DNA from: Mucilaginibacter boryungensis
GTDB lineage: Bacteria; Bacteroidota; Bacteroidia; Sphingobacteriales; Sphingobacteriaceae
NCBI RefSeq assembly: GCF_015221995.1
Contig: NZ_JADFFM010000001.1
Location: 1,178,001-1,242,000, forward strand
DNA length: 64,000 nucleotides
Direction of reading: 5' to 3'
Shown one piece after another: positions 41,858-64,000 of the stretch (positions within the stretch are counted from its first letter, which is position 1; every line of letters starts with the position of its first letter). The notes under the pieces were generated by a model. That model saw only the letters and a program-made list of their open reading frames with translations, was not told the origin of the DNA and did no database searches. A program made the position numbers and the translations under genes.

Positions 41858-42024
41858 TGCGTTATGGCATAAAAATTATCAGCGGCCAACCCGATATATT
41901 GAATTTTGAGGAATAATGATAAATTACCATAGTACAAACCAAAGGAGATCCGAATTACGTCCGTGCATTCAGCCGTGTGTATGGGTATATGTTTTAAATT
42001 AATAATGTAATAACAAACAAACTA

Positions 42025-46808: not shown

Positions 46809-46834
46809 TATATTTGACGATGATTGCGTAGTCA
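46809..46834 (+). promoter_or_regulatory. Promoter and auto-operator of the LacI-type gene
   Basis: TATATTTG (46809-46816) is an exact -7 box, and TGATTGCGTAGTCA (46821-46834), a variant of the TGAATACGTATTCA palindrome, begins five bases later. The arrangement is nearly identical to that at 48204-48230. Repressor bound here would cover the transcription start, so autorepression is likely. Confidence 0.6.
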
Positions 46835-46859
46835 AACAAAAAATAACAAGCAGGAAGTT

Positions 46860-47861
46860 TTGAAAAAGAATTATACATCACAAGATGTTGCGGAAGTTGC
46901 GGGTGTTTCGCAATCAACCGTTTCCAGGGTTTTTGCCGGTAACACAAATGTGTCTGATAAAAAACGCAAAAAGATATTGGAAGTGGCAGAGCAACTGGAC
47001 TACAAACCTAATGCACAAGCCAGAAGTCTGATTACGCGGAAAACCATGATGGTGGGAATCATTATGCGTAATATGCGCGACCCTTTTTATTCTGCTGTTC
47101 TCGAAATATTTCACACCCGTTTATCACCATTAGGCTATCAGCTAATTTTTATCAATTCAGAAAATGAAGAGATCCAGGAATCTGAAATAGCTAAGCTATT
47201 GGAATATAATGTTGAAGGGGTAATTGTCACAGATGCGCTGTTATCCCCAGCAGCTGCAAAAAAGCTAAAGCGGTATGATATTGTTTCTATATTATTTAAC
47301 CGTTACACAGAGAACTTGGACAGTAGCGCAGTTTATTGTGATAACTATCTTGCTGCAAAGCAAATTGCTACTTATTTGGTTGAACAGGGGCACAAATCGT
47401 TTGCTTTTATTTCAGGTCCGGCACACACGTCTACCACAATTGACCGGTTGAAGGGATTTAAAGAGGTTTTAAATGAGCGTAACATAACCGACTTGATTAT
47501 AGAATCGGGTACTTATACTTATGAGAGTGGATTTAAAGCTGCACAGGAACTGGTTATGCGCAATAAAAACATTGATTGCATTTTTTGCGGGAGCGATATT
47601 ATTGCATTGGGTGTTATGGATGCTGTAAGACTGGTGGGGCTAAAAATACCGGAAGATATATCTGTAGTAGGTTTTGATAATATCAGGATGTTAGGATGGG
47701 TGCCTTACCCGCTTACTACGTGGGAGCAACCACTGGAAGATATGGTTACTAGTACAGTTGATTTGCTTATAAAAGAAATTAATGATAAAAACGCTAAACC
47801 ACAAGTAATAGTTATGAAGGGGCATTTAGTTATCAGAAACACCGTAAAAACTAAATCATAG
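46860..47861 (+). CDS. LacI-family transcriptional regulator
   Basis: The N-terminal helix-turn-helix reads YTSQDVAEVAGVSQSTVSRVFAG, in two parts around residues 5-27, and is followed by the hinge-type YKPNAQARSL and a periplasmic-binding-protein-like effector domain with GFDNIRMLGWVPYPLTTWEQP. I choose TTG at 46860 (333 residues) because AGGAAG lies just before it. The longer frame starts with TTG at 46824, inside the operator and next to the transcription start. Five operator-like palindromes at its own promoter and upstream of 48509 and 59503 mark it as the local regulator of locus 3. The effector is probably L-fucose, D-arabinose or a pathway intermediate. Confidence 0.9.
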   Translation: MKKNYTSQDVAEVAGVSQSTVSRVFAGNTNVSDKKRKKILEVAEQLDYKPNAQARSLITRKTMMVGIIMRNMRDPFYSAVLEIFHTRLSPLGYQLIFINSENEEIQESEIAKLLEYNVEGVIVTDALLSPAAAKKLKRYDIVSILFNRYTENLDSSAVYCDNYLAAKQIATYLVEQGHKSFAFISGPAHTSTTIDRLKGFKEVLNERNITDLIIESGTYTYESGFKAAQELVMRNKNIDCIFCGSDIIALGVMDAVRLVGLKIPEDISVVGFDNIRMLGWVPYPLTTWEQPLEDMVTSTVDLLIKEINDKNAKPQVIVMKGHLVIRNTVKTKS

Positions 47862-48203: not shown

Positions 48204-48230
48204 TATATTTGAAATATGATTACGTATTCA
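48204..48230 (+). promoter_or_regulatory. Promoter with LacI-type operator upstream of susC
   Basis: TATATTTG (48204-48211) is an exact -7 box, and TGATTACGTATTCA (48217-48230) follows five bases later, closely matching the layout at the regulator's own promoter. The transcript would have a leader of about 280 bases before the SusC start. Confidence 0.65.
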
Positions 48231-48334: not shown

Positions 48335-48348
48335 TGAATACGTAGTCA
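48335..48348 (+). promoter_or_regulatory. Second LacI-type operator upstream of susC
   Basis: TGAATACGTAGTCA lies 118 bases downstream of the operator at 48217. A near-consensus box (GTATTTTG) overlaps it. The pair could allow looping or a second promoter. Confidence 0.55.
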
Positions 48349-48429: not shown

Positions 48430-48508
48430 AACCGTTATCGCAAAAGTGTTAACTATCAGCGCATTTTGTATTTCAAGATCAATTATTAAACCTATACAAT
48501 CAATGATT

Positions 48509-51500
48509 ATGCAAATTTATACTAACCAAAAGAGCACAAATTATATTCGTTACTTTTTTAAATGGGATACTCAATCCATCTACCGTATCCGAATTTTGTG
48601 TATGCTAATATGTTGTGTTGGCATATTGCGTACCGCAAATGCAACAACCTTTGGCACGCCTAAAATAAAAGACAATACCTCATCAATAAATAAATTACCC
48701 CCATTTGTATTATCGGGTATAGTAGTTGACGAGAAAGATGAACCATTGCCTGGGGCATCCGTAAAGATAAAAGGTACTACCAAAGGTGTTGTGACAGATG
48801 TTTATGGAAAATTCTTAATAGAAGTACCCAGCGAAAATGACTCATTGGTAGTTTCGTTTGTTACTTTCAAAACCAAAACCGTACATATAGGCAATGTTAA
48901 AAATATTAAAGTAAGTTTAGATCCGGATATTAAAGGCAGGACTTTAAATGAAACGGTTGTAACAGCCTTTGGCAGTACACAGAAAAAAACATCATTAACT
49001 GCCGCAATAACTACGGTTAAAGTTAGTGATCTGCAAAAATCACCTGTTCCCTCATTATCAAATGCACTTGGGGGTAAAGTGACTGGTGTTATTACGAGGC
49101 AGGTATCAGGAAGCCCGGGCGCCGATGGTGCAAACATATACATCCGCGGTGTTGCTACATCTTCTTCTACTAACCCGCTTATTTTGATTGATGGGGTTGA
49201 ACGGGATATCAACACCATCAATGTGGAAGAAATTGAAAGTTTTACCGTATTAAAGGATGCGTCTTCTACAGCTGTTTATGGCATCAGGGGGGCGAATGGG
49301 GTAATTCTGATTACGACAAAAAGAGGGGTTGCAGGAACGCCGAAAGTGACTTTAAGAACAGAAACGGCTATAGATCAGTCGCTGCGCTTACCGAACTATA
49401 TTAATGCTTTTGAATATGCCACATTAGTTAACGAAGCAAGATTTAATAGTGGTTTGGCCCCTCAATATACCGCATCCGACCTGCAAAAATATCAAGATCA
49501 TTCAGACCCCTATCTCCATCCGGATGTTGATTGGGTGGACGCTACGTTGAAAAAATCAACCATGCAGTCAGTAAATAACCTGAATATCAGGGGAGGGAAT
49601 GAAACATTTAAATATTATAGCAACGTTGGGTATACTGTTCAACAGGGTATTTTTAAGGAAGATCCTGATGTGTCTTATTCAAGTAATACAAGTTATAAAA
49701 GATACAATTTTCGTAACAATGTTGATGTTAGTTTAAGTAAAACCTTTTCTGTAGCACTAAATGTGGGTGGAAATGTAGCTACAGCCAACTATCCAGGATA
49801 TAATTTGGGTAATTTCCAAAATTTCACTGGCAACCAATACCTTATTTTCGAGTTTTTAAATCTTACACCTAATAATGCTTTCCCTTTAAAAAATCCAAAC
49901 GGCACCAATCCTGGGATATCGGGTACATTAAATGAAAGCCCATATGTTAAAGTAACACAAAAAGGATACCAGAGAGTATTTAGAAGCAATGTTCAAACAT
50001 CATTGGAGCCAAAATGGGATTTATCTAAATTAGTTACCCCAGGTTTAACAGCCAGAGGGCTGTTTGCTTATGATTTTAGATCGTCTACCACCAATACCAG
50101 AAGTAGAACTGCTGGTACCTTCCAATATACAGGTAAAGATGCCAATGGTGTAGACCAATACAAAACAATCAATACTGAAACAGCTTTAGGCTATGATGCG
50201 CCTTCAAGCATTGCAGACCGTAACCTCCAATTGGAATTAACGTTGGATTACAATCGTACGTTTGGTAAACATGCCGTCACCGGTTTAGTTGTGGCCCGCA
50301 GAATAGAAAGGGTGGATATGACCGCGGGATCTTCCATTCAAAACTTACCCTTCAGACAGGAAGGATATGCTACACGTTTAACTTATGGCTATGATAACAG
50401 GTATTTGATTGAAGGCAATCTGGGCTACACGGGTTCTGAAAACTTTGCCCCCGGAAAAAAATTCGGTTTTTTTCCGGCTGGTTCTGTGGGATGGCTCATA
50501 TCAAATGAGAAGTTTTGGAATCCGGCGATCATAAATTCTTTCAAAATCAGAGGATCGTACGGTTTATCGGGTAATGATCAAATCGGCGGTGATCGATTCC
50601 TGTTTCAGACTACCATCAACAAAGCCGCAGGCAATTATAGCTTTGGGGAAAGTCCAACGACACAAGGTGGGGCATTTTCAGAAGCGAGGATCGGAAATGA
50701 AGCCATCACCTGGGAGGTTGCCAGAAAGTTAGACATAGGTACAGATATTAGTATATTAAATGGAAAAATAGACTTAACTATTGACTTATTTAAAGAACAC
50801 CGCACTAACATTTTATTACAGAGGCAGCAAATTCCTCTTGCTTCAGGTTATCCCAGTTCTATCATTCCATACGCAAATTTGGGTATAATTGATAATAAAG
50901 GCTTTGAGGTTAGTCTGGATCTTCGTAACCAAACTAAAAGTGGGTTTTATTACGCGTTTAGCAGTAGGTTTACATTTTCAAGAAATATATGGGTAGAGGA
51001 TGATAAGCCTTATAAAGCACTCGCATACCAAAATTCAAGAGGGAATTCCCTGAATGAAAGCTATGGTTATATAGCGTTGGGCTTATTCCAAAATCAAAAT
51101 GAGATCAATAATAGTCCATCCCAAACTGCTTTGAAGCCTAATACCGCACCCGGGGATGTTAAATATCAAGACTTAAACGGCGACGGAAAAATTACAACTG
51201 ATGATCAAACCTTTATTGGTTACGGCCGGACTCCAGAAATAATGTTTGGTTTTGGCCCTTCATTTGCCTATAAAGGATTTGATTTAAGTGCCTGGTTTAC
51301 TGGTGCTGCACATACCAATATGGATTTGGGCGCTAGTGATGCTTCTACAAAAAGCCGCGCATTCTGGGCATTTTATGATCAGGGATTTAATGTTTTACGT
51401 GGTTATTATGACAATCACTGGGTGCCTGGCGCTGATAATACTAACGCCAAATATCCGGCTGTTACAAGTACCCAACGTCATTCAAATAATTATGTTACCA

Positions 51501-51736
51501 GCACTTTATGGTTAAGGAATGGCGATTATTTACGCCTATCAACTGCGGAAATTGGTTATACATTACCTAAAAGCATTATTCAGAAATTACATATAAATAA
51601 ATTACGCTTATTTGTAAACGGTCAAAATTTGGCTATTTGGGATCATATTAAAATTATTAATCCTGAAGATAATAACACCAATGAGAATTATCCGTTAACA
51701 CGCAACATCAACTTTGGCGCTTTAATAGGCTTTTAA
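48509..51736 (+). CDS. SusC-like TonB-dependent transporter of locus 3
   Basis: The open frame extends back to GTG at 48446 (1096 residues); ATGs at 48503 and 48509 are likelier starts, giving about 1075 residues. The N-terminal hydrophobic segment RILCMLICCVGILRTANA serves as signal peptide. A carboxypeptidase-D-regulatory-like domain follows (FVLSGIVVDEKDEPLPGASV), then a TonB-box-like TVVTAFGSTQKK, a plug with IYIRGVATSSS and IESFTVLKDASSTAVYGIRG, and the barrel ending in GALIGF. It imports oligosaccharide with the SusD 20 bases downstream. Paired LacI-type operators lie upstream. The cargo is inferred to be a fucose- or arabinose-containing glycan from the downstream genes. Confidence 0.93.
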   Translation: MQIYTNQKSTNYIRYFFKWDTQSIYRIRILCMLICCVGILRTANATTFGTPKIKDNTSSINKLPPFVLSGIVVDEKDEPLPGASVKIKGTTKGVVTDVYGKFLIEVPSENDSLVVSFVTFKTKTVHIGNVKNIKVSLDPDIKGRTLNETVVTAFGSTQKKTSLTAAITTVKVSDLQKSPVPSLSNALGGKVTGVITRQVSGSPGADGANIYIRGVATSSSTNPLILIDGVERDINTINVEEIESFTVLKDASSTAVYGIRGANGVILITTKRGVAGTPKVTLRTETAIDQSLRLPNYINAFEYATLVNEARFNSGLAPQYTASDLQKYQDHSDPYLHPDVDWVDATLKKSTMQSVNNLNIRGGNETFKYYSNVGYTVQQGIFKEDPDVSYSSNTSYKRYNFRNNVDVSLSKTFSVALNVGGNVATANYPGYNLGNFQNFTGNQYLIFEFLNLTPNNAFPLKNPNGTNPGISGTLNESPYVKVTQKGYQRVFRSNVQTSLEPKWDLSKLVTPGLTARGLFAYDFRSSTTNTRSRTAGTFQYTGKDANGVDQYKTINTETALGYDAPSSIADRNLQLELTLDYNRTFGKHAVTGLVVARRIERVDMTAGSSIQNLPFRQEGYATRLTYGYDNRYLIEGNLGYTGSENFAPGKKFGFFPAGSVGWLISNEKFWNPAIINSFKIRGSYGLSGNDQIGGDRFLFQTTINKAAGNYSFGESPTTQGGAFSEARIGNEAITWEVARKLDIGTDISILNGKIDLTIDLFKEHRTNILLQRQQIPLASGYPSSIIPYANLGIIDNKGFEVSLDLRNQTKSGFYYAFSSRFTFSRNIWVEDDKPYKALAYQNSRGNSLNESYGYIALGLFQNQNEINNSPSQTALKPNTAPGDVKYQDLNGDGKITTDDQTFIGYGRTPEIMFGFGPSFAYKGFDLSAWFTGAAHTNMDLGASDASTKSRAFWAFYDQGFNVLRGYYDNHWVPGADNTNAKYPAVTSTQRHSNNYVTSTLWLRNGDYLRLSTAEIGYTLPKSIIQKLHINKLRLFVNGQNLAIWDHIKIINPEDNNTNENYPLTRNINFGALIGF

Positions 51737-51756: not shown

Positions 51757-53586
51757 ATGAAATCAATAATAAAACCAATTTTTACTTTACTGCTGATATG
51801 CAGTGCGCTAGCATGTAAAAAAGATTATTTGAATAAAGTCCCGGATGATGACCTGACATTGGATCAGGTATTCGCTAATCATGATTATGCCCGGAATTTT
51901 TTAAATAACGTTTATACAGCGCTTCCTCAGGAATATCGTATGGTGGACCCCGTAGTCAACTCGAACCCTTTTGTTGGCGCCTCTGATGACATGGAAGAAA
52001 TGTATCCGCCTGCATTTAGTAATACTATGAATGACGGCTCGTGGAATCCAACTACTAACGTTATGAAATACTGGGAATTGTTATATGTCGGTATTCGTAA
52101 AGCAAATTTGTATATCGAAAATGCAGATAAAGTGCCAACTGATGACATTTACACGGCAGCGGATAGGACAAAAGCTAAGGGCGAAGCGATTTTTTTACGT
52201 GCTTTTTATCATTTTTTACTGATGAGGATATATGGACCTATTCCTATCGAAGATCATTCTGTGGCGCTTGATTTTGACTTTAGGTCCATTCGCCGTGATC
52301 CGATTGATAAATGCGCGGCATTTGTCGTGAGTGAGTGTGATAAAGCAGCTGCTTTATTACCTGACCGTATCACTTCGAGTGTTGATTTTGGCCGTCCGGC
52401 TAAATCAGTTTGTTTAGCCTTAAAAGCCCGTGTATTATTATATATGGCCAGCCCGCTTTGGAATGGTAACCCGGATTATGCAAATCTAAAAAATGATAAC
52501 GGCACCCGCCTGTTCCCCGATTTTGTTGCTTCAAGATGGCAAGATGCGGCAACGGCAGCAAAAGCTTGCATTGATCAGGCTGAATCAGTAGGTCACGGCT
52601 TATATACTTCGGCAACAAATGATCCGATTAAGAATTACTATGAAGCCTCTTATTTACCTAACACTAAAGAGATCTTTTTTGCTTACATTGAAGGAGTAAA
52701 TACCGACCATGATGTATACAGTGAGCCGCGTGGGATGAATGGTGTTGGCTTTACTTTAAATGGCCCAACTCAAGATGTAGTTGATGATTATGAGATGGCA
52801 AACGGCACCCAACCCATATTAGGCTATACAGAACCGGGGCATATACCAATTATCAATCCTGCATCTGGTTATACTGAAACAGGATTTACAGCAGCAGCTG
52901 ATCCCAAAGGTTATTACGCCGCTGGCACCAGTAATATGTACGTGGGGCGCGACCCTCGTTTTTATGCAAGTATTCATTACTCAGGGGAAATATGGAAACC
53001 AACGCTGCGCGCTGGTGGAACAGCGCTTGATTTTTCATTTTCGGGTCCTGATGGATATGCCGGACGAAACGGAGGCAATTATACCAAAACAGGGTATTTA
53101 GTACGGAAGGCAGCGAATCCAGATTTTATTATGTCTCCACGTAAGGCTGTAGTACACTCCTTCCCGTTTTTTAAATTGGACGAACAATATTTAAATTATG
53201 CAGAGGCATTAAATGAAGCACAAGGCCCTGTGGCAGATGTATACAAGTATGTTAACTTGATCAGGACGCGATCTGGTATGCCTAATTTACCAGCAGGGTT
53301 GTCAAAAGATGATATGCGCACGCGTATATGGCATGAACGCCGGATAGAGTTATTTTTTGAAGGGTTCCGTTATTTTGATGCCCACCGCTGGAAAATTGCT
53401 GAACAAACAGAAGGTAGTAATGTCTATGGTTTAAATATATTGGCTGGTGCAAATCGTATGGATCCTAATTTCTATAAACGTACAGTAATAGAAAAGCGCG
53501 TGTTTGAAAAGAAACATTACTTGTGGCCAATTCAGCAAAGTGAAAGAGATAAAAATCCCAACTTGGTTCAAAATTTTGGTTGGTAA
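51757..53586 (+). CDS. SusD-like surface glycan-binding lipoprotein of locus 3
   Basis: This 609-residue lipoprotein has a lipobox ending at Cys20 (CSALACKK). SusD landmarks are GEAIFLRAFYHFLLMRIYG, RPAKSVCLALKARVLLYMAS, PLWNGN and HERRIELFFEGFRYFDAHRW. It is the partner of the SusC that ends 20 bases upstream. A 12-bp perfect hairpin lies directly downstream, before the GH172-like gene, echoing the hairpin behind the SusD of locus 2. Confidence 0.95.
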   Translation: MKSIIKPIFTLLLICSALACKKDYLNKVPDDDLTLDQVFANHDYARNFLNNVYTALPQEYRMVDPVVNSNPFVGASDDMEEMYPPAFSNTMNDGSWNPTTNVMKYWELLYVGIRKANLYIENADKVPTDDIYTAADRTKAKGEAIFLRAFYHFLLMRIYGPIPIEDHSVALDFDFRSIRRDPIDKCAAFVVSECDKAAALLPDRITSSVDFGRPAKSVCLALKARVLLYMASPLWNGNPDYANLKNDNGTRLFPDFVASRWQDAATAAKACIDQAESVGHGLYTSATNDPIKNYYEASYLPNTKEIFFAYIEGVNTDHDVYSEPRGMNGVGFTLNGPTQDVVDDYEMANGTQPILGYTEPGHIPIINPASGYTETGFTAAADPKGYYAAGTSNMYVGRDPRFYASIHYSGEIWKPTLRAGGTALDFSFSGPDGYAGRNGGNYTKTGYLVRKAANPDFIMSPRKAVVHSFPFFKLDEQYLNYAEALNEAQGPVADVYKYVNLIRTRSGMPNLPAGLSKDDMRTRIWHERRIELFFEGFRYFDAHRWKIAEQTEGSNVYGLNILAGANRMDPNFYKRTVIEKRVFEKKHYLWPIQQSERDKNPNLVQNFGW

Positions 53587-53600: not shown

Positions 53601-53634
53601 ATTATAAAACCGGGCTTTGGCTCGGTTTTATAAT
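53601..53634 (+). terminator. Hairpin between susD and the GH172-like gene
   Basis: ATTATAAAACCG (53601-53612) and CGGTTTTATAAT (53623-53634) form a perfect 12-bp stem with a 10-base loop. It ends 12 bases before the start codon at 53647 and covers the TTG that opens the longest downstream frame. It probably attenuates transcription or stabilises the susCD mRNA. Confidence 0.65.
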
Positions 53635-53646
53635 ATTAAAATGCTT

Positions 53647-54855
53647 ATGAAAATTAATGGTCTGATTATAAGGGTAGTGGCAATTGTTTTATGTTTTTTT
53701 TATGCCAATTTAAAAGCCCAATCACTATATGAATTGCCAACTGATGTTAACACCCGCTGGATAAGTTTTGAAAACCCAACGGGTGGAAAGGGCGCTGGCG
53801 CCATGCAAAATAAAGGAGCTAAGGGCAATGCCAGTCAATGGGTTAAAGCAGGCGAATCCAAAGTGTTAATGGATTATAATGGCGCTGGTGTAATTAACCG
53901 TATATGGATGACCATTATAGATCGTAACCCTAAAGCGCTAAGGGCAATACATCTGGATATGTATTGGGAGGGCTCAACAAAACCTGCCGTATCTGTGCCT
54001 TTAGGCGATTTTTTTGGTATAGGCTTAGGTAGGATGGCTGCTTTCCAAAGTGCTTTATTTACCGATCCGGAAGGGAAATCGTTCAATTGTTATATTCCAA
54101 TGCCATTTAGAAAGCATGCTAAAATTGTTTTTGTAAATGAATCGCAACAGAACCAATTGTTGTTTTATGATGTGAATATTTCTAAACTCGCAAAACCGAC
54201 TAATAATATAGCATATTTTCATGCTTATTGGAGTAATAATGATGGCGCAAAGCTAGGCGAAGATTTTGAAATATTACCCCGGGTTAAAGGGAAGGGCCGG
54301 TTTTTGGGTACAAACCTAAGTGTGATAGCCGATAAGGTTTATGGTGATACATGGTTTGGCGAAGGTGAAGTAAAAACATATTTGGATGGAGATACGAATT
54401 ATCCTACACTGGCAGGGTCTGGCACTGAAGATTATATTGGATCGGCCTGGAATTTAGGGGCTTTTAATCAGCTATATCAAGGGGCTCCTATTGTTGATAA
54501 ACAAAAAAAGCAATATGCTTTTTATCGGTACCATATTCCCGATCCTATTTATTTTCATACAGATTGCCGTGTCACCATTCAGCAAATGGGCGGTGCCGGG
54601 CGAGATCTGATCAGGGGGATCATAAAGGCAGGGGGTAAGGCCAAACCAATTAGTGTGATGACTGCCAAAGGGTTGATCAAACTACAGGAATTAAAAGACT
54701 ACCCCGATCTGTTTGACGATAAGTTCCCGGCAGATGAATGGGTCAATTTCTACCGTATTGATGATTATTCAGCCACAGCCTATTTCTATTTAGATAAACC
54801 TGTAAGTAATTTACCTGCACTGGCGCCGCTTGAAAAAAGATTAAAGGGACTTTGA
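53647..54855 (+). CDS. DUF2961 / GH172-like glycoside hydrolase, secreted
   Basis: From the ATG at 53647 this protein has 402 residues and a signal peptide (about 1-25, ending LKAQ); ATG 53641 is also possible. The frame could extend to TTG 53617, but that lies inside a hairpin. Family landmarks are SFENPTGGKGAGA (40-52), YNGAGVINRIWMT (77-89), WFGEGEVKTYLDGD (236-249) and SGTEDYIGSAW (258-268). GH172 uses two glutamates; by motif these should be E239 or E241 and E261. Characterised GH172 enzymes act on alpha-D-fructofuranosides or alpha-D-arabinofuranosides, which share furanose geometry. With FucI and FucP genes in the operon, a D-arabinofuranose-containing substrate is plausible; this is inference. 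Confidence 0.82.
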   Translation: MKINGLIIRVVAIVLCFFYANLKAQSLYELPTDVNTRWISFENPTGGKGAGAMQNKGAKGNASQWVKAGESKVLMDYNGAGVINRIWMTIIDRNPKALRAIHLDMYWEGSTKPAVSVPLGDFFGIGLGRMAAFQSALFTDPEGKSFNCYIPMPFRKHAKIVFVNESQQNQLLFYDVNISKLAKPTNNIAYFHAYWSNNDGAKLGEDFEILPRVKGKGRFLGTNLSVIADKVYGDTWFGEGEVKTYLDGDTNYPTLAGSGTEDYIGSAWNLGAFNQLYQGAPIVDKQKKQYAFYRYHIPDPIYFHTDCRVTIQQMGGAGRDLIRGIIKAGGKAKPISVMTAKGLIKLQELKDYPDLFDDKFPADEWVNFYRIDDYSATAYFYLDKPVSNLPALAPLEKRLKGL

Positions 54856-54883: not shown

Positions 54884-56107
54884 ATGAGAGCAATTCTTTT
54901 AACCATTCAATCACTGTTTATTATCGTAAGTATGATGTCATGCAATTCGCCATCAGGCAATGCAAGCGGGGGCAATAACGCTAAAGGTAGCTTTGGTTTT
55001 GATTGTGAGTTTATTGCAAAGCATGATATCGGCGCTGTCATACTATCCAGCGGAGATATGAAGATTATTGTATCGCCAAAGTACCAGGCCAAAGTTTTTA
55101 CATCAACAGCTTCAGGGGATGCTGGCCGAAGTTTTGGTTGGATTCACTATAAAGCTTTTGACGGACCTAAAGATGCCCATATGAATGCGTATGGTGGAGA
55201 GAACCGTTTGTGGTTAGGTCCCGAAGGTGGTCGTTTTTCACTTTTTTTTAAACCGGGTGCAAAAATGGAATTTACCAATTGGACAACCCCAGCGGCATTT
55301 GATATAGAAAGCTGGGATGTGAGCGAGCATACTACAACTCTGGTGCGGTTACATAAGCAAATGTCGTTAATTAATTATGCCGGCACACAACTTTCGTTAC
55401 GGATAGATCGCAGCATATTATTATTAAGCAGAAAAGAAATAGATAGCTTATTAGGTATATCCACAGATACTTTGGTAAATACAGTAGGGTATCAAACCGA
55501 AAATACATTAACCAATACTGGCACAAACGCATGGGATGAAAAAAGTGGTGTGCCATGTATATGGCTCCTGGATATGTTTCCCCCCTCGGATAAAACAGTA
55601 ATTGTGGTGCCTTACAAGCAGGACAAACCAGAAACAAAACCCGCCACAACAAATTACTTTGGTGAAATACCGCCAGACCGAGTAAAAATGAATGGTAAAA
55701 CGCTGTTCTTTAGAGCTGATGGCAAAAACCGAGGTAAATTGGGCATCCATCCAAAAAGAGCGGTAAACATAGCTGGCAGCTATGATGCCCAAAATAAAAT
55801 ACTCACTATTATTAAATTTAGTATAGACAATAATGCGCAATATTTAAACCAAGAATGGAATACCACTAAGCCGCCTTTTAGCGGAGATGCTGTAAATGCT
55901 TATAACGACGGTCCGCTTGCCGATGGTAGTCAAATGGGGCCATTTTATGAACTGGAGAGTGTATCACCAGCCGCATTTCTTCAGCCGGGAAAAAAACAGG
56001 TACATCAGCATGCCGTATTCCACTTTACTGGTACTGAAGCCGCTTTAAGTAATATCAGCACAAAAACACTGGGCATATCGCTACAAGATATTAAAAAAGC
56101 TTTCTGA
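54884..56107 (+). CDS. Lipoprotein of the DUF6786 type, function unknown
   Basis: This 407-residue lipoprotein has a lipobox ending at Cys20 (VSMMSCNS). Motifs include SFGWIHYKAF, GGENRLWLGPEGG (about 104-116) and ENTLTNTGTNAWDE. They suggest a mutarotase-like beta-sandwich and resemble proteins annotated as DUF6786; I give that name from memory. No catalytic assignment is possible. It sits between the GH172-like gene (28 bases) and fucI (6 bases), so it is surely in the same transcript. A sugar-binding, epimerase or hydrolase role on the released sugar is conceivable. Confidence 0.7.
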   Translation: MRAILLTIQSLFIIVSMMSCNSPSGNASGGNNAKGSFGFDCEFIAKHDIGAVILSSGDMKIIVSPKYQAKVFTSTASGDAGRSFGWIHYKAFDGPKDAHMNAYGGENRLWLGPEGGRFSLFFKPGAKMEFTNWTTPAAFDIESWDVSEHTTTLVRLHKQMSLINYAGTQLSLRIDRSILLLSRKEIDSLLGISTDTLVNTVGYQTENTLTNTGTNAWDEKSGVPCIWLLDMFPPSDKTVIVVPYKQDKPETKPATTNYFGEIPPDRVKMNGKTLFFRADGKNRGKLGIHPKRAVNIAGSYDAQNKILTIIKFSIDNNAQYLNQEWNTTKPPFSGDAVNAYNDGPLADGSQMGPFYELESVSPAAFLQPGKKQVHQHAVFHFTGTEAALSNISTKTLGISLQDIKKAF

Positions 56108-56113: not shown

Positions 56114-57889
56114 ATGGCAACTATAACTAATACTTATCCTAAAATTGGCATCAGGCCAATTATTGATGGCCGGCTTGGCGGCGTGCGCGAATCATTGGAA
56201 ATGACTACCATGCAAATGGCCAAAAACGTAAAAAAACTATATGAGCAAACACTGTTTTACCCTGATGGTAGCCCGGTACAATGTATCATAGCCGATACTT
56301 GTATTGGTGGCGTAAGCGAGGCCGCAGCTTGTGCGCACAAGTTTGAGCAAAATAATGTGGGCGTATCCCTATCTGTAACGCCCTGCTGGTGTTATGGCAG
56401 CGAAACTATGGACATGCACCCTACGTGGCCCAAAGCTATATGGGGCTTTAATGGGACTGAGAGGCCCGGAGCGGTTTACCTGGCAGCTACACTGGCTGCA
56501 CATAACCAGTTTGGGTTGCCTGCTTTTGGTATTTATGGACATGATGTGCAGGATATGGGTGATGAGAACATACCTGCCGATGTGAAAGATAGATTACTGG
56601 GCTTTGCCCGCGCAGGCTTAGCCGTTGCTATAATGCGTGGTAAATCATACCTGGCTATCGGCTCTGTTTCTATGGGAATTGCCGGATCTATCGTCATGCC
56701 CGATTTGTTTCGTGAATATTTTGGCATGCGCAATGAATATGTTGATTCTACAGAAATATTACGCCGCATTGAAAAGGGAATTTACGATGTAGCAGAATTT
56801 GATAAAGCCATGGCATGGGTAAAACTAAACTGCAAAGAAGGCGATGATAAAAATCCAACGGAAAAACAGTTCAGTCGCCTGCAAAAAGATGAGCATTGGG
56901 CCTTTGTAGTTAAAATGACGCAAATAATTCGGGACTTAATGCAGGGTAATTCTAAACTTAAGGAACTTGGCTTTGGCGAAGAAGCAAATGGCCACGAAGC
57001 CATTGTTTCAGGTTTTCAGGGCCAACGGCAATGGACGGATTTTTTACCTAACGGCGATTTTCCCGAGGCTATGCTAAATTCTTCTTTTGATTGGAATGGA
57101 ATACGTGCCCCTTTTATGGTAGCAACCGAGAATGATTCGCTAAATGGAATGAGTATGTTGCTGGGTAATTTATTGCGCCATACAGCACAGATATTTGCCG
57201 ATGTGCGGACCTACTGGAGCCCGGATGCCGTTAAACGTGTTACCGGCTGGCAACCGGAAGGTTTGGGCAAGGATGGATTTATTCATTTGATAAATTCAGG
57301 TTCGGCCGCATTAGATGGCACAGGGCGGCAACAAAATGAAAACGGCCCGGCCATGAAGCCATTTTGGGAAATTAATGAAACCGAGGCGCGACTGTGCCTG
57401 GAGGCCACACAATGGTATCCTGCAAATAATGGTTATTTCCGCGGCGGGGGATATTCATCGCAATTTGTTACCAGTGGAGGGATGCCTGTAACTATGTGCA
57501 GGTTAAACTTGGTTAAAGGGCTTGGGCCTGTGTTGCAAATAGCCGAGGGTTATACTATTGACTTGCCTGATCATGTGCACAGCACATTAAATAACCGCAC
57601 AGACCCAACATGGCCAACAACCTGGTTTGTGCCTGTACTAACGGGCGAAGGAAATTTTACTGACGTATACAATGTAATGGCGGCATGGGGGGCAAACCAC
57701 GGATCTTTTAGTTATGGACACTACGGCCATGAATTAATAACGCTGGCTGCTATGTTGCGTATACCTGTAAGTATGCACAATGTACCTGGCGAAAAATTAT
57801 TCAGGCCAGCGGCATGGAAGGCTTTTGGTTCGGATAATGAAGGGGCTGATTACAGGGCATGCGCTACTTATGGGCCTTTATATAAATAA
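56114..57889 (+). CDS. fucI: L-fucose / D-arabinose isomerase
   Basis: This 591-residue protein matches L-fucose isomerase over its whole length, which equals that of the E. coli enzyme. ATENDSLNG (E339), IFADVRTYW (D363) and GANHGS (H529) carry the metal-binding residues corresponding to E337, D361 and H528 in E. coli. It is cytoplasmic, with no signal peptide. It converts L-fucose to L-fuculose; enzymes of this family also isomerise D-arabinose to D-ribulose. The genes for the next steps (kinase, aldolase or ribulokinase) are not in the window. It lies 7 bases behind the DUF6786-like stop and 6 before the permease gene, in one operon. Confidence 0.96.
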
Positions 57890-57895: not shown

Positions 57896-59224
57896 ATGAA
57901 AAAAATCTTATTGCTACAGGGCCCGGATGGTAAATCTTACTTAGGACCATTCGCTTTAGTCACCAGTTTATTTCTATTGTGGGGTTTTGCGCATGGCTTG
58001 CTTGATGTGCTTGACAAACATTTTCAAACCACGCTGCATATTTCCAAAGCTCAATCGGGTTTTGTGCAGTTTTCCTTATATATCGGCTACTTGATTATGG
58101 CCGGGCCTGCAGGCTTGTTCATGAAACGATACGGTTATAAAAATGGAATTATTTTAGGACTGACGCTATTTGCAGCGGGTGCATTTTTATTTTATCCGGC
58201 GGCGCATATGGGCGCGTTTATTCCATTCTTATTGGCATTATTTATTATTGCCTGCGGCTTAGCATGCCTTGAAACGGCAGCTAACCCATATACAACCATA
58301 TTAGGTCCGCCGGACGGGGCAGCAAGGCGTATAAATTTTGCACAATCATTTAACGGGTTAGGCTGGATATTGGGGCCGCTTATTGGAGGGCTTTGTATCT
58401 TTGGAGCTACCAAAGTAGCAGGCCCCGAGCAGTTTGATTCACTTACGCGGCCATACCTTTGGATAGGCTGTATAGTAGTTGGTGTAGCTATTGTATTTGC
58501 CTTAACTAAACTACCCGAAGTTAAAGAAGAGAATAGCGAACATATTGACGCCAGGGCGCCGTTAAGCGAATTACTGAAACATCGCGGTTTTGTATTGGCT
58601 GTTATTGCACAATTTTTATATGTGGCCGCGCAAACCGGAGTTAACTCTTTCTTTATTAACTATGTCACCGAAACCTTAACTGGCTTAAAAGAAACCATTG
58701 GTGGTATGATGTCGCATTTAGGGACGTTTGGACATGTTTTTATGCCACAAAATCCCGAACAGGCTGCTTCATTGATCCTGGCTTTGGGCGGAATGGGCGC
58801 TTTTTGGATCGGCAGGTTGGTGGGGGCAACCCTAATGAAGTATATTTCACCTAAGCGCATGCTTGCTATTTATGCCATTGTAAATACCGTGTTAATGGGC
58901 GTTGTGGTGTCCCGGCTTGGATGGTTTAGTGTTATTGCCCTGTTTTCCAGCTATTTTTTTATGTCGGTAATGTTCCCTACCATTTTTGCACTGGGTTTAA
59001 AGGGGCTTGGTCCGCTAACAAAAAGGGCGGCGTCTTTTTTGGTAATGGCCGTTGCCGGTGGTGCTTTTTGCCCGCCGCTTATGGGGCTGATAGCGGATAA
59101 TTTTGGTATGTCCATTGCGTTCCTTATTCCCTTAGGGTGTTTCGCTTTTATTGCATATTATGGTATTACAGTCCGTTACCAGCACAATGCATCAGATCAT
59201 CCTAAATTTAGTGTTGTACATTAA
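57896..59224 (+). CDS. fucP: FucP-type sugar:proton symporter (MFS)
   Basis: This 442-residue protein has about 12 membrane helices and the FucP-type opening TSLFLLWGFAHGLLDVLDKHFQ, in two parts around residues 23-44, then SGFVQFSLYIGYLIMAGPAG, CLETAANPY and FAQSFNGLGWILGPLIGG. E. coli FucP is of similar length (438) and carries L-fucose and also D-arabinose and L-galactose. An insertion around residues 258-300 (IGGMMSHLGTFGHVFMPQNPEQ) is longer than in many MFS members, as often seen in Bacteroidota FucP proteins. It moves the monosaccharide from periplasm to cytoplasm for FucI. A terminator follows 8 bases later. Confidence 0.92.
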   Translation: MKKILLLQGPDGKSYLGPFALVTSLFLLWGFAHGLLDVLDKHFQTTLHISKAQSGFVQFSLYIGYLIMAGPAGLFMKRYGYKNGIILGLTLFAAGAFLFYPAAHMGAFIPFLLALFIIACGLACLETAANPYTTILGPPDGAARRINFAQSFNGLGWILGPLIGGLCIFGATKVAGPEQFDSLTRPYLWIGCIVVGVAIVFALTKLPEVKEENSEHIDARAPLSELLKHRGFVLAVIAQFLYVAAQTGVNSFFINYVTETLTGLKETIGGMMSHLGTFGHVFMPQNPEQAASLILALGGMGAFWIGRLVGATLMKYISPKRMLAIYAIVNTVLMGVVVSRLGWFSVIALFSSYFFMSVMFPTIFALGLKGLGPLTKRAASFLVMAVAGGAFCPPLMGLIADNFGMSIAFLIPLGCFAFIAYYGITVRYQHNASDHPKFSVVH

Positions 59225-59280: not shown

Positions 59281-59300
59281 TAAATTTGAATACGAATTCA
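59281..59300 (+). promoter_or_regulatory. Promoter box overlapped by a LacI-type operator
   Basis: TAAATTTG (59281-59288) is an exact -7 box overlapping TGAATACGAATTCA (59287-59300). Bound regulator would cover the promoter. It would drive the symporter unit at 59503 with a long leader. Confidence 0.6.
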
Positions 59301-59384: not shown

Positions 59385-59400
59385 ATGAATACGTATTCAT
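59385..59400 (+). promoter_or_regulatory. Perfect LacI-type operator upstream of the symporter
   Basis: ATGAATACGTATTCAT is a perfect 16-base palindrome, the best copy of the element in the window. A near-consensus -7 box (TTTATTTG, 59370-59377) lies just before it. It is 99 bases from the operator at 59287, echoing the 118-base pair upstream of susC. Confidence 0.7.
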
Positions 59401-59502: not shown

Positions 59503-61350
59503 ATGAACTGGAATCAATTAGACATTTGGATCGTTGCAATCTACCTGCTGTTAATGTTAGGCATGTCCTTGTGGCATAAGCGTTTTGCATCAGCTAATTT
59601 GGAAAACTTTTTTTTGGGCGGGCGAAAAATTCCCGGATGGTTAAATGGTATCTCCTACACAGCAGCCTTGGTAAGTCCGGATGCAGCTACAGGCTACGGC
59701 GGCTTGGCGGTAGTAACAGGTGCATTTATTTCCTGGTGGTATTTAAGCAGGTTTGGATTGGCTTTATTTATTGGCGGTGTGCTTTTCGCTGTATTCTGGC
59801 GACGATTAAACTTATTCACATCGCTTGAATTTTATGATCTGCGTTTTCAGTCGCGTGCCGCATCGGCCATGCGGATATGGATAGCAGTACGTACCTCGCT
59901 TATTGCAATGCCTGCGTGGACTGGAATAACCCTGCTTGCCGCTTACAAAATAATGGGGCCGGCATTCGGATTAACTAAAACAGAAACGCTTTACCTGGTT
60001 GTGCCTGTTTCGTTCTTATTCGTCTTTTTCTCAGGCTATAAAGGTGTGGTAATATCCAACCTGATACAAATGAGTATCTTTTTTGTAGGTACCATTACAC
60101 TTGCCGGGCTTACCCTGGCACATTTTGGTGGCCCGGTAGCTATGACGGCGACTATAGGCCATGTGTTTAATTCAACGCATCCCGAAATATTACACATGAT
60201 GCCACCGGCCAATCACGATGTATTTCCGCTGATGGCTGCTATGGCCTGGTTATTTGGTCAAAGCATTGGTTATGGCGGCGATGCTGCCCCAATGGGTGGC
60301 GCTATGGAAGGTCAGCGTATACTTTCTACCCGTACCCCAGCCGAAGCCTTGACTATGTACGTGGTAACTGCTGTCAGTATGTTTATATTATTACTATTAG
60401 TTACCCTGCCCAGTATATCAGCAACGGTTATGTGGCCTGAGTTGCGTGCTGCAGGTGCCGACCGTGAATTAGTATATGGCCGGTTAATGAAAGAATTGCT
60501 GCCGCATGGCGCTATGGGACTGCTTGTTGCCGCTATGATGGCTGCTACAATGTCTGTAGTAGGCGATAATTTAAACTTTGGAAGTCAGGTAATGGTGAGT
60601 GATATCTACCGCCGGTGGTTTGTAAAATCGGCCAGCGAAAGACATTACATGATCATAGGTAAAATAGCTATGGGTATTATTGTTTGCCTGGCCATAGCCG
60701 TAGTATATAATGTAAGTATTATTACCAATGTAGCCATATTTATGCTACAGCTTAGCGCAGCCGAACTACCTGCAAATTGGGCGCAATGGTGGTGGTGGCG
60801 TTTTAATGGTGCTGCCCGTATCGCCGCTTCGTTTGGAGGCGCTGTTCTCTTTTGCATAGTGGTTTTAGGGCCTAAGCTGCTGATGTTTTTAAATATACCG
60901 TGGGCGCAGGACCTGATTTTGCCCTGGTGGTGGCAAACCCTGCTGGTTATGGGTTTAACAACTGTACTTTGGGTAACTGTTGCCCTGGTAACCAAACCTG
61001 ATCCGGATCAATTACTTAATGGTTTTTACCAGCGTGTGCGCCCTTTAGGTTTTTGGAAACCTTACCGCACCAGGTATGCGCCCCTGCCTAAAACACCTGT
61101 TAAACCTATCATCAGGGGGGTGGGTATTGCTATTGAAGGCTTTATTGCCGTATCACTACTTATTCAAGGCCTTACACAAATGTGGTTTGGGAAATATTTA
61201 ATAGGCGTTGCCGAGTTAACAGGTTCGGTAATCTTATTTATTGTATTTAAAAAACTGGCCAATTCTTACCTGCTTTATCTCACATCACGTACAGAAAATG
61301 TAATAATACCCGGCGATACCCAACAGGGGTTACCGGCACCTGATAAATAA
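59503..61350 (+). CDS. Sodium:solute symporter (SSS family)
   Basis: This 615-residue inner-membrane protein has about 13-15 hydrophobic helices. Family features are the start IWIVAIYLLLMLGMSLW, FFLGGRKIPGWLNGISY, and GLLVAAMMAATMSVVGDNLNFGSQVMVSDIY, in two parts around residues 335-370. The fold is LeuT-like with sodium coupling. SSS members carry sugars, nucleosides or organic acids; the substrate cannot be read here. It heads the second LacI-controlled unit, separate from fucP, so it likely imports a related or derived compound rather than duplicating FucP. The C-terminus ends in a soluble, proline-rich tail. Confidence 0.92.
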   Translation: MNWNQLDIWIVAIYLLLMLGMSLWHKRFASANLENFFLGGRKIPGWLNGISYTAALVSPDAATGYGGLAVVTGAFISWWYLSRFGLALFIGGVLFAVFWRRLNLFTSLEFYDLRFQSRAASAMRIWIAVRTSLIAMPAWTGITLLAAYKIMGPAFGLTKTETLYLVVPVSFLFVFFSGYKGVVISNLIQMSIFFVGTITLAGLTLAHFGGPVAMTATIGHVFNSTHPEILHMMPPANHDVFPLMAAMAWLFGQSIGYGGDAAPMGGAMEGQRILSTRTPAEALTMYVVTAVSMFILLLLVTLPSISATVMWPELRAAGADRELVYGRLMKELLPHGAMGLLVAAMMAATMSVVGDNLNFGSQVMVSDIYRRWFVKSASERHYMIIGKIAMGIIVCLAIAVVYNVSIITNVAIFMLQLSAAELPANWAQWWWWRFNGAARIAASFGGAVLFCIVVLGPKLLMFLNIPWAQDLILPWWWQTLLVMGLTTVLWVTVALVTKPDPDQLLNGFYQRVRPLGFWKPYRTRYAPLPKTPVKPIIRGVGIAIEGFIAVSLLIQGLTQMWFGKYLIGVAELTGSVILFIVFKKLANSYLLYLTSRTENVIIPGDTQQGLPAPDK

Positions 61351-61388
61351 TAATTAAAAGAATAAATCATCATTCAACACAACAATTT

Positions 61389-62201
61389 ATGAGAGCAAAA
61401 CAACTGTTCAGAACAAAAGAGGAGCATGTACTTTATCTGGGCGACTGGGTATTCCATGTTGGGCCAACGTTTATAGAGACACCTTTTGGAACAGAAACAA
61501 AAGATGCAGACCTGCATTTTTATGGCGAGCGGCTTACCGAAGCATTAGAGCATGAGGTGGATGTTACGCCATTATCTAACTGGGAATTATACAGATTGGA
61601 GCCGGGAAAATTGGAAAACTATCTGGCGGAATCGAATTGCCTTATTATTAGTGATGTTGAAGCTAAATGTTTTCACTTATATCCAAGCTTTTTTGACCGC
61701 GCCCGACGCGAAAATAAAGTTGTAACCTTTCCCGACAGGCTAACTGCTATTAAGCAATGGATTAATGATGGCGGCGGTATGATGATGTTGGGCGGCTGGC
61801 TGTCTTTCAGCGGTGTTCAGGCAAAATCGGGCTGGGGTCGCAGCACACTACAGGAAGTTTTGCCGGTAGAATGTTTGCTGGTTGAAGATCTGGTAGAATC
61901 ATCTGCGGGTTTTACTGCCGAGGTTGTAATGCCCGATCATCCTGTTGTAAAAGGTTTGCCATGGGATAAGTTTCCACCCATATTTGGGTATAACGAAACC
62001 ACCGAAAAAGTTAACGGCGATGTGCTGGTACGTGTTAAAGAAACCGGCCATCCGCTGGTTGTGGCAGGCGAATATGGCAAAGGCCGGGTATTTACATATA
62101 TGTCTGATCCGGCTCCGCATTGGGGGATAAATTTTGAATTGTGGGAAGGTTATGATGCTTTTTGGTTGCAAGCATTAAACTGGGTTAAAAAGAGGAAATA
62201 A
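61389..62201 (+). CDS. GATase1-like cytoplasmic protein, function unknown
   Basis: This 270-residue protein lacks a signal peptide. It shows a class I glutamine-amidotransferase-like flavodoxin fold: YLGDWVFHVGP, CLIISDVEAKCF, IKQWINDGGGMMMLGGW and PLVVAGEYGKGRVF, with VLPVECLLVED near residue 157. It resembles the PF07090 putative amidotransferase family (from memory). At the place of the nucleophile elbow it reads GGWLSFSG and lacks the catalytic cysteine, so amidotransferase activity is unlikely. It lies 38 bases after the symporter and 4 bases before the ceramidase-like gene. A carbohydrate-binding or hydrolase role is possible. Confidence 0.75.
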   Translation: MRAKQLFRTKEEHVLYLGDWVFHVGPTFIETPFGTETKDADLHFYGERLTEALEHEVDVTPLSNWELYRLEPGKLENYLAESNCLIISDVEAKCFHLYPSFFDRARRENKVVTFPDRLTAIKQWINDGGGMMMLGGWLSFSGVQAKSGWGRSTLQEVLPVECLLVEDLVESSAGFTAEVVMPDHPVVKGLPWDKFPPIFGYNETTEKVNGDVLVRVKETGHPLVVAGEYGKGRVFTYMSDPAPHWGINFELWEGYDAFWLQALNWVKKRK

Positions 62202-62205
62202 CAAA

Positions 62206-63432
62206 ATGGATCAACTACAATTACAGGCCGGCGCCGCAGTGGCAGATATTACACCACCACTGGAAGTTGGTTTATTAACATCATCTGTAAAAGGTTTGTA
62301 CGAACCTTTTGAATCTATTCGGTTACCTTTAAAAGCCAGGATACTTGTTTTACAATCGGGCGATGAATTAGTTGCTATTGTTGCGCTTGACCTGTTGGCA
62401 ATAAATGATACATCAGTTGGTGGTTGGACAATTTTTAAACAATCATTGTCGGACACTATTCCTGCCGATAAGATCATCATATGCTGTACACATACGCATA
62501 GCGCGCCTGAATCAAGCGCTATGTCTGGGTTATATTTAACCAAATCTTATAAAATATGGCTGGATGATATGAAGCAGCGGATAAAAACGGCTATTAATGA
62601 AGCAATAGTCAGATTAAAACCCTCAAGTTTATCAATATCCACTGATACCTTAAACGGCTATTCTATGCAGCGCCGGATAAAAACGCCAACCGGTATAATA
62701 ATGTCCGATGCTATCCAGCCCATTGCACCCGAATTATTGGATCTGCCTCCTGTCGATCGTCGGGTAAAGACATTGCATTTCAAGGATGATTCAGGGTGTG
62801 GCATTGCTACTGTTGTGCAGGCGGTGTGCCATCCGGTGCATGAAATGTGTATACCAAAAATTTCTCCCGAATTTCCTGGTGAAATGTGTATAGCGCTTGA
62901 AAAAACAGCACAAAATGGAGTGGCCTTGTTTTTAAATGGAGCAGCGGGCAACACCAATCCGCCAACAGTTTCCTGCGGGGCTGAATATGCCCGCAAACAT
63001 GGTATAGCTTTAGCAGAAACTGCTCAAAAACAGGAGGGTAGGGTTGAAATAGATATTACGGAATTTAAATTTATACATAACGAGTTGCAGTTACCGGCAC
63101 GAAAAGAAGCGGGCATTACTAATATGGATGACGCTATTGGCCGGTTAAGTGTAATATGCATAGGCGTGTTGGCAATTGTTTTTTTACCAGGCGAAGTATT
63201 TATTGAAACAGCATTTGAAATAGAGGAAAACTCACCGTTTGAACATACAGTTATTGCAGGATTTGGCGAAAACAATATTGGCTATTTACCCACTCAGGCC
63301 GCCTTTAATGAGGGAGGATACGAGGTTGGCCCGGGTAAATGGTCATTTCTTAAACCCGGTACCGATCAATTACTGGCTAAGGAAGCCACGAGATTATTGA
63401 AAGAATTATATTATACTACTATAAACAGCTGA
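62206..63432 (+). CDS. Neutral-ceramidase-like metallohydrolase, no signal peptide
   Basis: This 408-residue protein matches the N-terminal catalytic domain of neutral/alkaline ceramidases: AAVADITPPL (10-19), IICCTHTHSAPES (91-103, candidate zinc histidines), VVQAVCHPVHEM (203-214) and FLNGAAGNTNPP (242-253). In true ceramidases the last motif is close to NGDVSPN, with a serine nucleophile. Here the serine is replaced, and there is no signal peptide or ceramidase C-terminal domain. A ceramidase activity is therefore doubtful. Such proteins recur in PUL-type clusters without a known function. Cytoplasmic location, with GATase1-like and symporter neighbours, suggests hydrolysis of an imported small molecule. 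Confidence 0.8.
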   Translation: MDQLQLQAGAAVADITPPLEVGLLTSSVKGLYEPFESIRLPLKARILVLQSGDELVAIVALDLLAINDTSVGGWTIFKQSLSDTIPADKIIICCTHTHSAPESSAMSGLYLTKSYKIWLDDMKQRIKTAINEAIVRLKPSSLSISTDTLNGYSMQRRIKTPTGIIMSDAIQPIAPELLDLPPVDRRVKTLHFKDDSGCGIATVVQAVCHPVHEMCIPKISPEFPGEMCIALEKTAQNGVALFLNGAAGNTNPPTVSCGAEYARKHGIALAETAQKQEGRVEIDITEFKFIHNELQLPARKEAGITNMDDAIGRLSVICIGVLAIVFLPGEVFIETAFEIEENSPFEHTVIAGFGENNIGYLPTQAAFNEGGYEVGPGKWSFLKPGTDQLLAKEATRLLKELYYTTINS

Positions 63433-63433
63433 T

Positions 63434-64000
63434 ATGAAAATACAGACTATAATTAAAAGTATATTGCTGGTAACATTGGTAATTATTGCATTTGTCGTAC
63501 AAGGATCTGCCTTACCCCGGGCTTTGTATTTTTATGGAAGCGAGCAAAATGATCTTTATCAGTTATTAAAGCGCGAGGGTTTTAACCTGAAAAAGTGCGA
63601 AACCCCTATGGCGGCTGTTAAAGCTGCTGTAAAAGGTTCGGGGGTATTTATTTTAGCTAAAAATTATCCGCAAACCGATCCCCAAAATCGTATTACTGCA
63701 CAACTATTAGCGGCAGCTAAGGCAAAAGGACTAAAACTTTATATAGAATATCCTGCCGAATTCCCCGGTTTGGATATTCCTTCTAAACCATTAGAAACAC
63801 AGCTGGAACGAGGCGTTGTAACCACCGGGCTTTTTGGAGAAAGGTTAAAACCAATGAGCCTGCTGGGCATTAATAATTGTTTTGTGCTACCTGTGCAGGC
63901 AACAAATCCTTTAATTGTCCTGGCCAAAGTAGTAGGGGTGGATAAAGCAGAATATGGCTTGGATGATACCCCAACTAATCCAATACTTTTTGAAAAGGAT
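63434..64000 (+). CDS. Secreted protein of unknown family, cut by window end
   Basis: An ATG one base after the ceramidase-like stop opens a frame that runs to the window end without a stop (189 codons seen). It begins with a signal peptide (MKIQTIIKSILLVTLV, ending about VVQGSA), then ALPRALYFYGSEQNDLYQLL and KREGFNLKKCETP. A Rossmann-like alternation of strands and helices (SGVFILAKNY, GLKLYIEYPAEFPGL) follows. I do not recognise the family. It is probably the N-terminal part of a larger periplasmic enzyme, perhaps a glycoside hydrolase. Tight spacing puts it in the symporter operon. Confidence 0.75.
   Translation, partial: MKIQTIIKSILLVTLVIIAFVVQGSALPRALYFYGSEQNDLYQLLKREGFNLKKCETPMAAVKAAVKGSGVFILAKNYPQTDPQNRITAQLLAAAKAKGLKLYIEYPAEFPGLDIPSKPLETQLERGVVTTGLFGERLKPMSLLGINNCFVLPVQATNPLIVLAKVVGVDKAEYGLDDTPTNPILFEKD

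Follow-up and report, generated by a model that had tools for sequence, protein, structure and literature searches.

What do four tightly packed genes, encoding a transporter, two cytoplasmic proteins and a secreted protein, contribute to a locus that also encodes an L-fucose/D-arabinose isomerase (fucI) and a FucP-like permease (fucP)? We addressed this question in a 64,000-nucleotide stretch of the Mucilaginibacter boryungensis genome (RefSeq assembly GCF_015221995.1; 4.88 Mb in three contigs) that covers positions 1178001-1242000 of contig NZ_JADFFM010000001.1 (C1) and is referred to here as the window. We found that the four genes form a conserved unit within a much longer locus containing GH172 genes. 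Predicted folds and gene neighbourhoods lead us to propose, with a probability of roughly 35%, that the unit is a second branch handling a residue other than arabinose, most likely an N-acylated amino sugar.

Conservation of the four-gene unit

The four genes are open reading frames (ORFs) in tandem on the + strand with gaps of 38, 4 and 1 bases. An earlier interpretation made from the letters alone (the sequence-only reading) had rightly described them as closely spaced.

59503..61350, + strand: SSS-family sodium/solute symporter, 615 amino acids (PF00474, 110.9 bits; cut-off 22.8)
61389..62201, + strand: GATase1-like cytoplasmic protein (GAT1), 270 amino acids (PF07090, 193.1 bits; cut-off 27)
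62206..63432, + strand: predicted neutral-ceramidase-fold metal hydrolase (CERA), 408 amino acids, catalytic domain only (from its fold and a PF04734 match below cut-off)
63434..64000, + strand: start of the gene for a secreted 720-amino-acid protein (U720), which ends past the window edge at contig position 1243596; the whole gene is L005:435-2597

One scan with U720 returned 144 relatives, and the 79 best distinct loci among them (designated by L numbers) were kept. Sixteen of the 79 (L008-L015, L018, L020, L021, L030, L031, L050, L053 and L055) contain the full set of symporter, GAT1, CERA and U720 – clustering in related genomes had been named beforehand as the test of the unit, and the unit survives it. 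Gene order is symporter-GAT1-CERA-U720 in 15 of these 16 loci, with gaps mostly below 60 bases; U720 stands first in L053. All 15 same-order loci, here called main-type, also contain a histidinol-dehydrogenase-like (HisD-like) gene, and the recurring layout includes GH172 and conserved SusC and SusD genes, with SusC at the head. This layout spans Sphingobacteriaceae and Chitinophagaceae, and hosts of the full set are Mucilaginibacter, Pedobacter, Chitinophaga, Niabella, Flavitalea and Chitinophagaceae or Sphingobacteriales metagenome-assembled genomes.

Identity to the window's proteins is 68-81% for the symporter and 72-86% for GAT1 in the 14 other units, and 77-84% for the HisD-like protein and 44-62% for CERA across units. 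In evenly drawn phylum samples, this genome alone yielded the symporter group (1/296 at 1e-60) and CERA (1/395 at 1e-40), and GAT1 was found in 9/395 (1e-15); in an order sample, CERA was found in 3/151 at 1e-20. These scarce phylum-wide matches indicate that the unit is rare and taxonomically narrow. No title or abstract opening describes the unit, either among the papers listed that pair ceramidase with Chitinophaga or utilization loci or among those listed on D-arabinan loci with SSS symporters. In Pedobacter sp. V48, whose locus ends at the contig end, CERA is split into two ORFs (L018:1321-2534) by a frameshift or sequencing error.

Position 64000 is a mere window edge, since the co-directional gene run continues in the genome. 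Extension past this edge, the stated end of the unit, places DUF2961/GH172, GH43, HisD-like, a second, longer DUF2961/GH172 and SASA esterase genes after U720. Further downstream in the same direction are GH3-like and GH20-like genes (by eye), more GH43-like genes and a GH116 gene (L005:15328).

Operators shared by two operons

The genes and operator sites upstream of the unit are as follows.

46824..47861, + strand: ORF for a LacI-family regulator, probable regulator of the locus
48217..48230, no strand: LacI-type operator 1, before susC (TGATTACGTATTCA, 1 mismatch)
48335..48348, no strand: LacI-type operator 2, before susC (TGAATACGTAGTCA, 1 mismatch)
48446..51736, + strand: SusC-like outer membrane transporter (ORF as listed, true start possibly further in)
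51757..53586, + strand: ORF for a SusD-like lipoprotein
53617..54855, + strand: DUF2961/GH172 enzyme 'a' (GH172a)
54884..56107, + strand: DUF6786 protein, belonging to the fucI module (PF20583, 534 bits)
56114..57889, + strand: L-fucose/D-arabinose isomerase (fucI), with three Fucose_iso domains
57896..59224, + strand: FucP-like major facilitator superfamily permease (TIGR00885 fucP, 345.6 bits; cut-off 280.4)
59287..59300, no strand: LacI-type operator 3, before the symporter (TGAATACGAATTCA, 1 mismatch)
59386..59399, no strand: LacI-type operator 4, before the symporter (TGAATACGTATTCA, a perfect palindrome)

Sites matching TGAATACGTATTCA with at most one mismatch occur four times in the window (48217, 48335, 59287 and 59386), against 0.03 from shuffles; genome-wide there are five, against 0 for a reversed-pattern control. 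Two precede susC, two precede the symporter – the latter pair had already been noticed by the sequence-only reading – and the fifth, at C1:1950816, lies 33 bases upstream of a second symporter gene. Because both operons share operators that are otherwise found only before the second symporter copy, joint control of the susC-to-fucI-fucP operon and the symporter operon in this genome is well supported at the sequence level, in line with the co-regulation proposed earlier.

The operator recurs in the loci of three other genomes and is not general. In L072 and L055, whose LacI proteins are 65% and 66% identical to the one at 46824, the same operator precedes susC, and in L072 it also precedes lacI; L008 has two sites between the GH172a gene and the symporter. 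Searches allowing up to two mismatches turned up no site in L053, L019 or any of seven separate fucI loci (described below). The second symporter-CERA-U720 set of this genome (L006:4437-10784; C1:1944436-1950783) is under the same operator, is without GAT1 and holds a tandem U720 copy of 247 amino acids in which the middle of the protein is missing. Upstream of the listed genes, window positions 30277-46658 hold more glycan-degradation genes (GH2-, sulfatase- and GH20-like by eye).

Predicted folds and key residues

U720 matched no Pfam or NCBIfam family at E<=0.01, and its matches to PDB sequences were 13-bit noise. Its structural model (mean predicted local distance difference test score (pLDDT) 94.4, predicted template modelling score 0.92) comprises a predicted alpha/beta N-terminal domain and an (alpha/alpha)6 barrel at residues 246-700. 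Structural matches of the barrel, at Z 25-26.5 and about 10% identity, include GH88, GH76 and AGE-type epimerases; 1vd5 gives Z 26.5, and several families tie with none singled out. By its model, U720 is an (alpha/alpha)6-barrel sugar-enzyme fold, so that prediction of the full 720 residues gives a place to a protein that had seemed unplaceable. Residues E309, D330, D397, D398, E582 and D664 do not vary across 72 sequences and are catalytic candidates, and secretion was judged from a signal peptide by eye.

In a U720 tree, the proteins of L019 and L072 fall with the main type in one well-supported clade and that of L053 falls outside. A 2564-amino-acid ORF with a U720-type region (L061:2290-9984) lies directly upstream of a normal U720. 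Cyclobacterium-type loci (L034, L035, L037, L039, L041-L043, L045 and L054) keep a fixed order near U720, with neighbours that resemble, by eye, an Nramp transporter, an NAD-epimerase and a dihydrodipicolinate synthase. We rejected the idea that GAT1 and the U720 N-terminal domain are one family, as the two have no profile similarity.

CERA falls below the cut-offs of both PF04734 (Ceramidase_alk; 23.7 against 32.1 bits) and NF041649 (17.4 against 1200 bits); because it is short and under these cut-offs, we do not file it as a ceramidase. Its AlphaFold2 model (mean pLDDT 79.8; low at 97-103, 168-170, 210-215, 250-255 and 372-379) aligns with neutral ceramidase 2zws over 355 residues (Z 30.4, root-mean-square deviation 3.0), and ceramidase rows alone exceed Z 5 in the structure search. 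H96, E330 and Y360, at zinc-ligand positions, are invariant in 17/17 aligned sequences, and H209 was matched to the fourth position by eye only; we take the ligands of the Pseudomonas neutral ceramidase to be His97, His204, Glu411 and Tyr448. The altered active site that the sequence-only reading ascribed to CERA is not confirmed by these residues and this fold. With no signal peptide seen by eye, CERA was judged cytoplasmic, and on its model it probably works like a ceramidase-fold metal hydrolase.

GAT1 has two PDB relatives, 3soz and 2gk3 (E 4e-38 and 3e-38), the latter presumably STM3548. Its elbow reads GGW137LSFSG in 15/15 sequences, with tryptophan at what we take to be the position of the glutaminase cysteine nucleophile; the cysteine that marks class I glutamine amidotransferases is absent. 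An altered GAT1 active site had been claimed as well, and the missing cysteine is real. As judged from the aligned sequences, however, the non-cysteine elbow is a family trait rather than a peculiarity, because both solved relatives carry tyrosine there. Among the papers listed on STM1381, GATase1-like proteins, PF07090 or DUF1355, none deals with the function of this family, by title and abstract opening. Pairs of PF07090 and SSS genes also occur in L105 and L106, alongside a PhyH dioxygenase and a corrinoid methyltransferase trio recognised by eye (UroD-like, B12-binding and homocysteine methyltransferase); L105 has PhyH and an amidohydrolase, and L106 has GH84 and a Gfo/Idh gene.

The HisD-like protein passes TIGR00069 (histidinol dehydrogenase) at 454.7 bits (cut-off 243.8), and its closest solved relative is sulfopropanediol dehydrogenase HpsN (444 bits, against 309 for histidinol dehydrogenase). 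Residues Q250, H253, E318, H319, D352 and H411 are identical in all 15 sequences compared and presumably correspond to the usual metal and catalytic positions. A role as the C4-dehydrogenase of the Route III pentose pathway was considered and rejected: the available part of PMC6336799 assigns that step to short-chain dehydrogenase/reductase (SDR) enzymes and makes no mention of histidinol dehydrogenase. This genome's second HisD-like gene lies at L118:1177-11190 (C1:1714176-1724189) with genes for a CERA-like protein, an FAA hydrolase, a D-serine dehydratase-like protein, an FAD/Fe-S oxidase and GH36, and an M19 dipeptidase gene is just upstream.

The parent glycan

That the locus is a polysaccharide utilization locus of a known kind is well supported, and it likely targets a D-arabinofuranose-containing glycan. 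GH172 enzymes occur together with the D-arabinose isomerase fucI here, as they do in D-arabinan utilization loci. The closest solved relative of GH172a is the exo-alpha-D-arabinofuranosidase 8ic8 (161 bits to 8ic8_A), and the first downstream GH172 (L005:2602-3780) scores 560 bits to 4kq7 and 559 bits to 8ah3 (labelled DG02479). Both downstream enzymes pass PF11175 (cut-off 27), at 284.7 bits for L005:2602 and 134.2 bits for L005:6189.

According to the available part of PMC10115798, HMPREF9455_02479 is DgGH172c, a D-arabinofuranosidase of the Dysgonomonas D-arabinan locus PUL42. That locus, in the same text, contains three DUF2961 genes, and its most abundant carbohydrate enzyme is a predicted fucose isomerase; GH172 and GH183 were discovered as mycobacterial D-arabinan cutters via such glycan loci. 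GH172 is paired with a GH116 exo-beta-D-arabinofuranosidase in the text available from PMC10509167.

A separable fucI module

The partnership of the unit with fucI and fucP, as first proposed, stands in part: the operators are shared in this genome, whereas fucI and fucP are in 0/15 main-type loci and form a separate module in 6/15 of those genomes. No fucI was found in the three MurQ-type genomes (L019, L053 and L072). Three of 99 sampled class genomes, one of them this genome, exceed the fucI cut-off, and the difference between 6/15 and 2/98 gives a Fisher p of 5e-5 with kinship ignored. In all six genomes fucI adjoins DUF6786 and a fucP homolog, and in five a DUF2961 gene lies in the same stretch.

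From its genes, the separate DUF6786-fucI-fucP locus looks like a D-arabinose module, and the window looks as if such a module had been joined into the unit's locus, with GH172a on one side and the symporter on the other. The chief reason for assigning both branches to a single parent glycan is this joining. The separate DUF2961-DUF6786-fucI-fucP arrangement recurs in L133-L138 and L140, where DUF6786 adjoins fucI, L138 being without DUF2961 in the stretch. Two Pedobacter fucI loci add GH116 and a 571-amino-acid gene, which in L135 is an FGGY kinase.

A proposed second branch and its alternatives

From the gene order and conservation, shared operators, folds and key residues computed here, we infer activities, an order of steps and an amino-sugar substrate. 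SusC and SusD would capture a D-arabinofuranose-containing glycan, from which the GH172 enzymes, with the downstream GH116, would free D-arabinose-type residues to be handled by FucP and FucI in this organism. Secreted U720 would free another residue, most likely an N-acylated amino sugar, and the symporter would import it. In the cytoplasm, CERA, as a zinc hydrolase, would cleave the residue's amide (or ester) bond, GAT1 would act as an enzyme other than a glutaminase and the HpsN/HisD-like dehydrogenase would oxidize a primary alcohol to an acid. The sequence-only reading had suggested a second branch or an acylated or amidated sugar conjugate; our findings fit this suggestion, which we carry forward as a proposal.

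Neighbouring genes point weakly to the substrate class. The divergent units L019, L053 and L072, whose symporters are 68-70% identical to the window's, adjoin a MurQ-family etherase gene; L019 also has GH20, NagK-like and NagB-like genes and a NagP-like permease, and L072 has an N-acylglucosamine-epimerase-like (AGE-like) gene. GAT1 relatives in L100-L104 share one gene order with a GH20 match, with NagB-like (PF01182) and PhyH genes Pfam-confirmed in L100. AGE-like genes lie near U720 relatives in 17/79 loci, with 3/7 of those tested passing the AGE cut-off; these AGE, GH20 and NagB neighbourhood counts carry no formal null model and come from related loci that are not independent.

Several observations weigh against this reading. 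No MurQ, NagB, kinase or AGE gene was recognised in the 15 main loci, meaning that distant versions and adjacent contexts are the source of the amino-sugar link. Other HisD-like relatives (L118-L120) sit with sugar-acid genes, with CERA-like genes in two of the contexts, which fits a lactone or acid pathway equally. Nine of the 15 main-type genomes have no detected fucI anywhere, and in 13 of the 15 main-type loci no copy of the operator was found with up to two mismatches allowed. As for the parent glycan, GH172 also includes alpha-D-fructofuranosidases (7v1v), and the known endo-D-arabinanase family DUF4185/GH183 has no match in this genome, with control genomes equally silent.

The main rival, which we judge somewhat unlikely, is an oxidative sugar-acid branch in which the symporter would import an aldonic acid or lactone that arises in the periplasm, CERA would be a metal-dependent lactonase or esterase, and the HisD-like enzyme would oxidize the terminal alcohol, its product passing to a 2-keto-3-deoxy-acid type pathway. 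The closeness of the HisD-like subfamily to sulfopropanediol dehydrogenase speaks for it, as do the neighbours of HisD-like genes: an FAA hydrolase, an FAD/Fe-S oxidase and a CERA-like gene in L118; enolase-superfamily, CERA-like and SSS-like genes, with SDR genes by eye, in L119; and SDR- and FAA-hydrolase-like genes, by eye, in L120. Yet neither the window locus nor any of the 15 syntenic loci has a recognised sugar dehydrogenase, dehydratase or FAA hydrolase, and the assignment of C4-dehydrogenases to SDR enzymes noted above also tells against it. A plainer account would make these ordinary accessory genes, with the symporter importing D-arabinose or another plain monosaccharide, GAT1 and CERA in housekeeping-like side roles and no separate pathway. 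The unit does sit in a GH172 locus, and SSS transporters for plain sugars are common. We nevertheless find this account unlikely: FucP is already there, the full unit occurs in relatives that lack fucI in the same locus (including the nine genomes just mentioned), a second symporter-CERA-U720 set stands under the same operator elsewhere in the genome, and GAT1 and the HisD-like protein are highly conserved.

Salvage of peptidoglycan or muramic acid, with U720 as an exo-muramidase-like enzyme, the symporter importing N-acetylmuramic acid (MurNAc) or a muropeptide, CERA as a lactyl-peptide amidase and a MurQ-like enzyme finishing, appears quite improbable. The MurQ-family gene beside the three divergent units would suit it, and 7/15 main-type genomes have a copy 65-74% identical to this genome's divergent MurQ. 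MurQ-family homologs, however, occur in 18/18 genomes searched, so their presence says little; the divergent MurQ proteins of L019, L053 and L072 (260.5, 261 and 248.8 bits) pass NF003915 (168) and fall below the TIGR00274 cut-off of 302; divergent MurQ clusters elsewhere hold GH84, GH20 or, by eye, a GH89-like gene, a general N-acetylhexosamine set; and GH172 has no place in such a scheme. MurT as an SSS transporter, which would tie the symporter to MurNAc, was considered and dropped, finding no support in the literature text available. One divergent MurQ of this genome lies at L132:8075-14856 (C2:400074-406855) with GH84, a FucP-like permease and a secreted protein of the L016:18981 group, which there has a weak ceramidase match; related sets in L146 and L149 have GH20 and a kinase.

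Significance and relationship to known systems

The locus contains four or five proteins with no assigned role, a set that is conserved and defined by its regulon. At about the same odds as the second branch itself, it may represent an undescribed pathway for the non-arabinose building block of D-arabinofuranose glycans, such as those of the actinobacterial wall, with U720 founding a new glycoside-cleaving family and the symporter, CERA, PF07090 and HpsN-like proteins dismantling an N-acylated or amidated amino sugar. If true, this would give first functions to several orphan families. A few assays could assign function to PF07090, the short ceramidase-fold group and the new barrel enzyme together.

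Among known systems, PUL42 of Dysgonomonas gadei shares with the window locus a fucose isomerase and multiple DUF2961/GH172 genes, one of which (8ah3) is of almost the same type. D. gadei also has a GH116 gene, in the available part of PMC10509167, as does the window locus. PUL42 differs in that the available part of its description makes no mention of the symporter-GAT1-CERA-U720-HisD set. U720 shares its barrel with GH88, AGE/cellobiose epimerases and GH76, to which it adds its N-terminal domain, and it stands apart from Pfam and NCBIfam families. CERA shares with neutral ceramidase the fold over nearly the whole chain and the metal-ligand positions; it differs in its length (408 against about 640 amino acids), predicted cytoplasmic location, 20% identity and sub-threshold Pfam score. 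GAT1 belongs to the same PF07090 family as STM1381 (3soz) and 2gk3, whose structures are labelled merely as cytoplasmic proteins, and it has tryptophan where they have tyrosine. The HisD-like protein matches HpsN and histidinol dehydrogenase over its full length, and its genomic setting is a glycan locus.

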